Positions 93 to 54,009 of a stretch of DNA of 54,820 nucleotides are shown piece by piece; positions within the stretch are counted from its first letter, which is position 1, and every line of letters begins with the position of its first letter. The position numbers and the translations under genes were made by a program. Source of the stretch: Verrucomicrobiota bacterium JB023 (lineage in GTDB: Bacteria > Verrucomicrobiota > Verrucomicrobiia > Verrucomicrobiales > Akkermansiaceae); assembly GCA_030673895.1 (NCBI GenBank), contig JAUTCR010000069.1, forward strand, positions 1-54,820, written 5' to 3'. Below the pieces are notes generated by a model, which was not told the origin of the DNA, did not search any database, and was given only the letters and a program-made list of their open reading frames with translations.

Positions 93-237
93 TTCTCCAA
101 CCCTTCTTATCGAAGGTCTTACCAACACGGGCTAGCCTCAACGCAGTCCACCTATCGGAACGCTTCTTAAGTCAGGGCCATTGGCCAAGCCTATCACCCT
201 CCTTGACCCGCTTTCTGCACCAGACGATCCCCGGACT

Positions 238-283
238 GCGGCAGCCTGCTGCCGCTTTTTTGCCTCGCAGCCTGCTGCGAGGC
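238..283. repeat. Two REP-type hairpins (forward core)
   Basis: Two perfect hairpins stand side by side. At 238-255 a 7-bp stem (GCGGCAG) closes a CCTG loop and is followed by six T residues. At 262-283 a 9-bp stem (GCCTCGCAG) closes the same CCTG loop. Both carry the core CAGCCTGCTG, although the outer stem bases differ. The same core recurs at 12.6-13.9 kb around a RAYT gene and at 53.95 kb. Confidence 0.8.
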
Positions 284-445
284 ACGTGGCTTGACCTTAA
301 CGGGAATCCAAGTTCTCAACGCGAGTTCACCGAAGCTCGATGGCATGAGTCTGCTCCCTAGGCTTCTACTTTACAGAAGCGATGAAAGCTCTGACGGTGT
401 GAGTTTGCCTAACTTGATCCACTTGGCGGTACCTCCCCGAGCTTC

Positions 446-489
446 GGGCCAGCAGGCTGGCCCTGACTCAAGCGGCAGCAGGCTGCCGC
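446..489. repeat. Two REP-type hairpins (reverse core)
   Basis: Hairpins at 446-463 (stem GGGCCAG, loop CAGG) and 472-489 (stem GCGGCAG, loop CAGG) carry the core in the opposite orientation, CAGCAGGCTG. Together with 238-283 they give the order forward, forward, reverse, reverse. Each 228-bp unit near the RAYT gene at 13 kb has the same order, which is a BIME-like arrangement. Confidence 0.8.
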
Positions 490-506
490 AGTCCATGGCC
501 TTCGGC

Positions 507-12530: not shown

Positions 12531-13119
12531 TATGAGGAGATTCACCCACGCTCCGAGCTATCCTTCCCCAAGCCAAGAGTCGAAGACTCCACGAACTGCG
12601 TCAGCCTGCTGACGCTCTCCTCAGTTCCAGCCTGCTGGAACGCGTCACGAGCGCCTAAACGCCCGTAGCACCCAACACGACCGGAAACGCCAGCAGGCTG
12701 GCTTCACCAAAGCGGCAGCAGGCTGCCGCAGTCCAAGGACCGTCTAGGCAGGACAGCTTGTGAGGAGATTCACCCACACTCCGAGCTGTCCTTCTCCAAG
12801 CCAAGAGTCGAAGACTCCACGGACTGCGTCAGCCTGCTGACGCTCCCCTCAGTTCCAGCCTGCTGGAACGCGCCACGAGCACCTCAACGCCCGAAGCACT
12901 CAACACGACCAGAAACGCCAGCAGACTGGCTTCACAATAGCGGCAGCAGGCTGCCGCAGTCCAAGGACCGTCCAGGCGGGACAGCTTGTTAGGAGATTGA
13001 CCCACGCTTCGAGCTATCCTTCCCCAAGCCAAGAGTCGAAGACTCCACGGACTGCGTCAGCCTGCTGACGCTCTCCTCAGTTCCAGCCTGCTGGAACGCG
13101 CCACGGGCATCTCAACGCC
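12531..13119. repeat. Tandem 228-bp REP/BIME units, copies 1-3
   Basis: The anchor GAGTCGAAGACTCCACG recurs at 12577, 12805 and 13033, an exact 228-bp period. Each full unit holds four hairpins with a 4-nt loop: forward core CAGCCTGCTG twice (12598-12615 and 12624-12641 in copy 1), then reverse core CAGCAGGCTG twice (12689-12702 and 12712-12729). Copy 2 has one substitution in its third hairpin. Copy 3 stops after its two forward hairpins, at about 13119, where the RAYT gene segment begins. The array starts soon after the rnpB promoter. Confidence 0.9.
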
Positions 13120-13153
13120 TATCTCTCACCCAAAACGCCAGCAACCCAATCCA

Positions 13154-13753
13154 CTACGAGGCCACTTCCTCGTCTCCATCTGCACGCGCAATCTCGTCGA
13201 ACCGAAAACTTGCGACTGTCTTGACCCAAGCGGGCGAGACAGACTTCACGAACTCGCCAGCACTGCACCATCGGTATTCGGATGCTTTTTTGACAATCCC
13301 GTGATGGACAGCATTTTGGTGCACATAGTTCAGTCGAGCTAGGTAGGACTCTTGCCGGGTGAGCAACCGGTCACGATAATTTTGCCAGATTTTCTCTCCT
13401 TTTTTTAGTTTCCCCCTCCCGATTAGCTCTTTCGAGGTTAGGCTATGGAGTTTTCTAAGCATGGGGACAAGAGTGGACGCGTCATCTTCACCCATTGGGC
13501 TATGCCCCACGAAATGATAATGATTACTGAGGACAGCCCAAGCTTCCAGTTTCCATCCCGACTCAGAAAAACGGTCCTTTAGGTTTTCGACAAACCAGTC
13601 CCTGATCCCTTCTTCCTCCAGCCAATGTTTTCCCTCTCGAAACCTTGCTGTCACCATATAGACTCCCATCTGAGCAAGCCGGTGCGGGGGAGCATGGGGC
13701 CAGTCACGGCTTCCTTTCGCTGACTGTTCGGGGGTAGGCAGTTCAAACGACAT
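13154..13753 (-). CDS. REP-associated tyrosine transposase (RAYT, Y1/HUH family)
   Basis: 199 aa, about the usual size for the short RAYT class. The HUH metal motif is HYH at residues 78-80 (LSNHYHFVGHSP). The likely catalytic tyrosine is Tyr143 in LNYVHQNAVHHG, and the typical WQNYRDRLL segment precedes it. RAYTs are single-strand nucleases related to IS200/IS605 transposases that bind and cut REP hairpins and are thought to spread them. This gene stands inside an array of 228-bp REP units: half a unit lies downstream and a full unit upstream (13794-13983). All catalytic residues are present, so the protein may be active. Confidence 0.9.
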   Translation of the reverse strand: MSFELPTPEQSAKGSRDWPHAPPHRLAQMGVYMVTARFREGKHWLEEEGIRDWFVENLKDRFSESGWKLEAWAVLSNHYHFVGHSPMGEDDASTLVPMLRKLHSLTSKELIGRGKLKKGEKIWQNYRDRLLTRQESYLARLNYVHQNAVHHGIVKKASEYRWCSAGEFVKSVSPAWVKTVASFRFDEIARADGDEEVAS

Positions 13754-13793
13754 CGTCGATTTCTACTCCTTCCGTCAACCCCCTCCCCGCCCA

Positions 13794-13983
13794 GAGTCGA
13801 AGACTCCACGGACTGCGTCAGCCTGCTGACGCTCCCCTCAGTTCCAGCCTGCTGGAACGCGCCACGGGCACCTCAACGCCCGAAGCACTCAACACGACCG
13901 GAAACGCCAGCAGGCTGGCTTCACCAAAGCGGCAGCAGGCTGCCGCAGTCCAGGGACCGTCCAGGCGAGACAGCTTGTTGGGA
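13794..13983. repeat. 228-bp REP/BIME unit, copy 4
   Basis: On the far side of the RAYT gene. The anchor starts at 13794, and all four hairpins are present: forward 13815-13832 and 13841-13858, reverse 13906-13919 and 13929-13946. Similarity ends just after GACAGCTTGTT, at about 13983. It is nearly identical to copies 1-3. Confidence 0.9.
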
Positions 13984-53538: not shown

Positions 53539-54009
53539 GTCGGGCTGAATCTGGAGTTCATCCCAATCATTGCGAGGAAAAATTGAGGGTGCCGATCAAT
53601 CGGGGACTCAGACGCCTTGAAATGAGCAGCTTCCTCGCAAAGTGAACCCAGAGCCGAGAAAGACCTCATTAAGTCGCAACCAGAGAACACCTCCTTGAAG
53701 CTAAGGCGCAACCTCCTAACACGGCAGAGACAAGCTCGCCGTATTCGGTTCTCGGCCAATGCATCGAAGAAAGCCGGTTCCTCCTTCGACTAATGAAAAG
53801 AATGCCCGAGCAGACTTTGCTAACAATACGCTTTCGCACCCAGAACGAAGCGCAGGCACATCCAATCCCCCACCTCCAGCAGCAGAGTCTACTGCTAGCC
53901 TCTGCCATCCCAATTCACCCAAGCACTTCCCACCCTTCACGTCCCCGGACTGCTGCAGCCTGCTGCAGCTCTCTATCCCCGCAGCCTGCTGCGGGGTGTG
54001 CCATCGCCA
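53539..54009. other. Gene-free stretch with two REP-type hairpins
   Basis: No convincing gene here. Two forward-core hairpins stand at 53952-53969 (stem GCTGCAG, loop CCTG) and 53977-53996 (stem CCCCGCAG, loop CCTG), the same family as near 13 kb. The remaining frames are short and compositional. Confidence 0.6.

Follow-up and report, generated by a model that had tools for sequence, protein, structure and literature searches.

What does a gene for a REP-associated tyrosine transposase (RAYT) do inside a tandem repeat, and did its product help to build that repeat? The question is raised by a locus in the window, by which we mean the whole stretch of 54,820 nucleotides analysed (contig JAUTCR010000069.1 of Verrucomicrobiota bacterium JB023). 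A sequence-only reading had placed the RAYT within a tandem array of 228-bp four-hairpin units, and this was borne out by the anchors, by TRF and by an intact 199-aa ORF. The anchor GAGTCGAAGACTC was found at 12577, 12805 and 13033, at a spacing of 228 bp, and again at 13794; TRF reported 12533-13119 with a period of 228, 2.6 copies and 93% matches, and a repeat search of the window returned four copies at spacings of 228, 228 and 761. Units 1 (12533-12760, with weaker homology reaching left to 12509), 2 (12761-12988) and 3 (12989-13119, ending beside the RAYT stop codon) were delimited by the repeat search and TRF; unit 4 (13783-13983) lies beyond the RAYT gene. The proposed forward-forward-reverse-reverse layout holds in units 1, 2 and 4, where the hairpins follow the order F1 F2 R1 R2 with loops CCTG, CCTG, CAGG and CAGG, the R1 loop of unit 2 showing one change from CAGG. 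Unit 3 contains F1 F2 alone and then the RAYT, the stop codon of which faces this unit.

The gene (13154-13753, minus strand) encodes an intact protein with HYH at residues 78-80 and Y143, which is a member of the RAYT/TnpA-REP family, with the HUH motif and the catalytic tyrosine. It matched the NCBIfam model of REP-associated tyrosine transposases, NF047646, at 80.8 bits, just above the cut-off of 80, and a Pfam search of the protein gave nothing above cut-off; H78, Y79, H80 and Y143 are invariant across 21 aligned relatives. Its fold is the Y1 HUH fold of TnpA-REP. Indeed, E. coli TnpA-REP (PDB 4er8) was matched by the sequence (E 1.3e-4) and was also the best PDB match of the AlphaFold model (pLDDT 80.6, pTM 0.78), with E 5.1e-10 and a TM of 0.59 by query and 0.70 by target, followed by the IS608 and ISDra2 transposases. 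At E 1e-8 this RAYT is the single match of its kind in the genome, where six further RAYT loci belong to other groups, and a plasmid search with it as query yielded no match. The protein is a domesticated transposase that probably recognises the surrounding hairpin blocks and aids their multiplication.

The four hairpins of a unit are two inverted two-hairpin REPs, each with a GGACT tag at its outer end: F1-F2 is one REP and R1-R2 the same REP inverted, so that the tags point outward. Two inverse REPs acting as a unit, often in tandem, define a REPIN or BIME, and both the F..R pairs and the arrays are present here. Among the tagged copies of the examined stretches, the element reads TCCNNGGACTGC in most of those from this genome, with hairpin 1 around the core CAGCCTGCTG and then hairpin 2, the core of which usually begins 25-27 bp after that of hairpin 1. 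In unit 1, the forward REP (12593-12641, plus strand; hairpin 1 at 12598-12615, hairpin 2 at 12624-12641) has GAACT as its tag, GGACT being found in the other units, and the reverse REP occupies 12689-12734 (minus strand, tag 12734-12730). Forward and reverse REPs lie at 12821-12869 (plus) and 12917-12962 (minus, with one change in the loop of hairpin 2) in unit 2, and at 13810-13858 (plus) and 13906-13951 (minus) in unit 4; the forward REP of unit 3 is at 13049-13097 (plus). F and R together form a single hairpin on folding (-42.2 kcal/mol, z -7.15), and the best fold of the reverse REP alone is a different structure. In a scan that required G[GA]A[CG]T, the tag was GGACT in 44 of 46 elements of the genome itself and in 52 of 55 elements of relatives; the GTAG or GTGG at the hairpin foot, canonical for the GTRG superfamily, was not found, this place being taken by GGACT.

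As expected of a REP, a short palindrome with many genomic copies, the element is abundant. The core CAGCCTGCTG occurs 109 times in the 4.03-Mb genome versus 6 times for the reversed control, and the tagged hairpin pattern 41 times versus 0; a core no commoner than chance, which would have undermined the sequence-only reading, is thus not what was observed. The claim that outer stem bases differ and still pair was tested on 99 cores from the examined stretches, of the 109 in the genome, and stood as well. In the 91 cores with a REP context, 352 of 364 pairs outside the core are formed, whereas shuffles, which make no correction for shared descent, reach 227 at most (mean 204.1). The 8 isolated cores form 11 of 32, no different from shuffled ones, and the 21 distinct stems keep 78 of 84 outer pairs (shuffle maximum 53). 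By shuffles of the same kind, likewise uncorrected for descent, hairpin 2 follows hairpin 1 in 29 of 34 elements of the genome (mean 2.6, maximum 7) and, among relatives, in 38 of 50 distinct ones (mean 4.4, maximum 9).

Read in gene orientation, the layout of the window locus is FR-rayt-RFRFR: the RAYT is flanked by cognate REPs in inverse orientation, which is the arrangement of a REPtron, as had been suggested. The earlier account also held that a fourth copy lies past the RAYT, which was confirmed, and that the gene interrupts copy 3 at about 13119, which was not supported. Unit homology stops at 13119; beyond it, by the RAYT stop codon, persists an 11-bp piece of an R1 hairpin arm (13133-13143, minus strand) identical at 11 of 11 positions to 12685-12695, 12913-12923 and 13902-13912. 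The survival of this remnant indicates that a reverse REP was deleted beside the gene. Distinct orthologue loci numbered 39 once duplicates between two locus sets had been removed and L123 and L147 dropped for want of an intact ORF. Tagged REPs were found within 1 kb at 31 of these and on both sides at 28, and the commonest layout was FR-rayt-FR (11 loci), 8 loci having none and the remainder variants. Since the orthologues normally sit between two REPINs, the RAYT of the window is in its usual place and no copy was interrupted; an insertion that broke a copy was rejected as a reading. One locus of another kind was observed in Verrucomicrobia bacterium SZAS-18 (L150), with the layout FFF-rayt-RRR, the gene having on either flank three REPs in direct orientation at a spacing of 84 bp, and no REPINs.

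We consider it very probable that the locus is a REPtron in this sense: a RAYT with its cognate GGACT-tagged two-hairpin REPs, accompanied by the spread of REPINs and by their local amplification in tandem. Mechanistically, the Y1 HUH protein would recognise a REP by its GGACT tag, its 7-bp hairpin with loop CCTG and its second, variable hairpin about 26 bp downstream, and two inverse REPs with their tags outside would form the REPIN, which as a single strand could adopt one long hairpin. If it acts as E. coli TnpA-REP does, the RAYT may cleave single-stranded REPs at the tag and rejoin them, and may in this way mobilise REPINs, one RAYT serving those of the whole genome. Some REPINs would then have been amplified locally, together with flanking DNA, into tandem arrays, including that beside the RAYT, after which the REPs would have been conserved while the filler drifted. 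REPINs as mobile units, the action of RAYTs on single-stranded REPs and the growth of BIMEs by RAYT cleavage have all been published or modelled (PMC3116915, PMC8266576, PMC2817692). The 8 of 39 orthologue loci with no tagged REP within 1 kb count against this reading, as do the 5 of 23 clade genomes and the 10 orthologue-less genomes described below, the different fold of the reverse REP alone, the varying array ends and the duplication-like array C75.

The part that the RAYT may play in tandem copying can be approached through the seven other tandem REPIN arrays of the genome, with mostly unrelated filler and periods that range from about 228 to 506 bp. The periods are about 228 bp in C71 and about 232 bp in C42, the fillers of which are related to each other, about 315 in C8, 318 in C15, about 350 in C58 and 355 in C75. 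The seventh is in the window itself, at the contig start, with a forward REP at 233-284 (plus strand) and a reverse REP at 446-494 (minus strand); its lag of 506 bp was seen only as a 90-bp repeat, positions 1-90 recurring at 507-596. Whole-unit identity between arrays is 0.34-0.57, except among C69, C42 and C71 (0.66, 0.67 and 0.85). Comparison within seven arrays, by pairs that are not independent, gave 30 differences over 1045 positions for REPs and 187 over 1793 for inner spacers: REPs have been conserved within the arrays while the filler drifted. Where both ends are visible the arrays are intergenic, and several lie just 3' of a gene. Near the other end of the window is a single two-hairpin REP (53947-53996, plus strand). 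Close to several contig ends (53947-54820 of the window; C4, C17 and C39) there is a REP with one and the same hairpin 2, which may travel with a repeated insertion sequence, as a transposase-like reading frame follows the REP in the window.

A first rival to the REPtron account concerns how such arrays arose. In ordinary tandem duplication, slippage or unequal recombination at the hairpins would have copied the REPINs, and the RAYT, having spread REPINs formerly, would have had no part in the tandem copies; we regard this as evenly balanced. It agrees with units that carry locus-specific flanking DNA, as the low identity between arrays indicates, and with array C75, which resembles an ordinary duplication with 5-bp microhomology. 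It is also in line with the varying phase of array ends, which are found 15-139 bp on the outer side of the first F tag and 17-137 bp on that of the last R tag (contig-start array excluded); such variable ends argue against simple cleavage at the tag and leave slippage open. The possibility that arrays begin or end at a tag was considered, and three ends alone, the left ones of C8, C58 and C69, fell near an R-tag position; because the other ends do not, we claim no RAYT-made array boundary. On the other side, tandem REPINs adjoin the RAYT in two relatives, with a period of about 148 bp in G148, which has a second array about 3.5 kb away, and of about 160 bp in G115, as they do in SBW25 (PMC3116915). 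The array survey covered hairpin-bearing loci, which bears on any comparison with the duplication of other DNA. At the left end of C58, a unit without F..R has its flanks joined at GGAC (L086, about 1609-1700, where GGAC stands between the upstream and the downstream flank), a single case that would suit equally an excision by the RAYT or slippage between short direct repeats.

A stronger proposal gives the RAYT the whole task: under a lineage-wide code apart from GTRG (tag TGGA[CG]TGCG), the RAYT would read the two-hairpin REP and itself drive both local tandem amplification and the excision of REPINs with captured flanking DNA, which would yield eight arrays of different period and make the GGAC join of C58 an excision scar. 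We find this proposal rather doubtful. Among 34 loci of more distant RAYTs (40-48% identity), 32 have TGGA[CG]TGCG in at least one flank and 26 in both, with 0 for the reversed control, once 21 of 55 loci lacking an intact ORF by the pattern used had been dropped; strings shared between flanks first pointed to this tag, and the direct count was then made.

The link between the RAYT and its REPs extends across the order. A RAYT match was found in 96 of 288 genomes, 23 of which were assigned to the clade of the window RAYT (matches above 180 bits, plus G203, whose gene is split into two parts with 55 and 59% identity); the relatives found are, by name, Akkermansiaceae, Verrucomicrobiaceae and some Planctomycete-labelled MAGs, and orthologue loci are present in Brevifollis gellanilyticus and Haloferula sp. 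BvORR071, among others. Tagged REPs occur in 18 of the 23 genomes with an orthologue versus 19 of the 265 without (Fisher p 2.5e-14, with no phylogenetic correction), so that the clade is associated with tagged two-hairpin REPs; its five genomes without the exact tagged pattern are G087, G176, G051, G173 and G095. The sequence-only reading would have been undermined by arrays in RAYT-less genomes, and here the outcome is divided: same-genus genomes without the RAYT have no such REP, but the 19 orthologue-less genomes keep tagged REPs, 10 of them in three or more copies, including G264 with 10 tagged REPs and no RAYT match at E 1e-8. REP-holding genomes below the 180-bit line often carry a more distant RAYT.

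This distribution bears on another explanation, in which the hairpins are kept for a host function, as transcription terminators, protection of mRNA 3' ends or sites for gyrase or another protein, and the RAYT is incidental. The intergenic position of the arrays, several just past the 3' end of a gene, and the fewer changes in REPs than in filler would suit such a function; however, the REPs accompany a single RAYT clade in different families and border its gene, and same-genus genomes do without tagged REPs, which makes this explanation unlikely. Indeed, the tagged pattern had 0 copies in each of the same-genus genomes G001-G003 versus 41 in the window's genome, and the core was present in 13, 18 and 10 copies. 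In G001 the only RAYT is a distant one (40% identity), and the search of G002 and G003 at E 1e-8 gave none.

At the site itself, the RAYT of the window and the array are absent from all three same-genus genomes, although rnpB adjoins the same gene in each. After rnpB, G002 and G003 have orthologues of the two genes that lie past the array; G001 has just one of these, separated from rnpB by an additional reading frame. Between rnpB and the gene next to it lie 1655 bp in the window's genome, about 175 bp in G002 and 54 bp in G003. The block has therefore either been acquired in this lineage or been lost three times, in the others. This absence would also suit an insertion-sequence-like unit, RAYT and flanking REPs transposing as a whole, but with one RAYT copy (E 1e-8) against many REPs in the genome, and published RAYTs showing no multiple copies (PMC2817692), such a unit is very unlikely.

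Tandem REPIN clusters beside RAYTs are already known. In Pseudomonas fluorescens SBW25, REPINs are tandemly repeated with flanking sequence, one such cluster lying beside each RAYT (Bertels and Rainey 2011, PMC3116915), and the inverted REP pair is likewise the unit here. Those REPs have one hairpin each, with spacings of 71 and 110 bp and clusters of 184 bp, whereas the present arrays have two hairpins per REP, another tag, units of about 228-506 bp and filler special to most arrays; the 228-bp unit was rightly described as larger than usual by this comparison. In gammaproteobacteria, RAYTs also lie between inverted REPs, a third of them are associated with BIMEs, and REP number follows the cognate RAYT; those REPs have GTAG-like heads, and the authors reported qualifying RAYTs only from gammaproteobacteria (Nunvar 2010, PMC2817692). 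The TnpA-REP classes of PMC6006769 share the HUH-Y1 protein and the REPtron-like layout, and REPs without GT[AG]G are described there for subclass 2.6 and class 3; the foot of class 3, compared by foot sequence, is CnGA versus GGACT here. TIRYTs, tyrosine transposase genes flanked by self-complementary, non-GTAG and sometimes double palindromes (Di Nocera 2013, PMC3733652), resemble the window RAYT in its double palindromes without GTAG; they would differ in their shared motif, GGGGWSAS. Among verrucomicrobia, REPs were already known in Opitutus terrae, with GTAG repeats. A search of the open-access literature found, among the entries and text passages it covered, no description of a GGA[CG]T-tagged two-hairpin REP. 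What differs here is the non-GTRG tag, the double hairpin, the lineage and the many arrays. The study of REP recognition by RAYTs has been based on proteobacterial systems with GTRG tags, and a GGA[CG]T-tagged double-hairpin clade offers an independent test of RAYT-REP coevolution. Eight arrays in one genome, differing in unit length and mostly with their own filler, could help to distinguish the construction of REPIN arrays by RAYTs from simple slippage, the step left open by published models.

Other RAYT families were also observed. One lies in frame inside host protein genes (C66, that is L061 1-3198; L209 on C9 of G001; L216-L220): inside leuS in the window's genome and in G001, leuS being uninterrupted in G002 and G003, inside metH in G001 and G003, inside an hsdR-like gene in G001, and in frames ending in adenosine deaminase in the window's genome (C35) and in G002. 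A literature search for RAYTs in frame inside host genes found none among the entries listed. The leuS copies, inserted near LeuRS residue 400, keep the HUH motif and a single open frame. A third RAYT-like family (C34, C39, C65 and C43; L064-L070), three members of which are on contigs shorter than 5 kb, has frames of up to 441 aa with an insert between the HUH and tyrosine parts.
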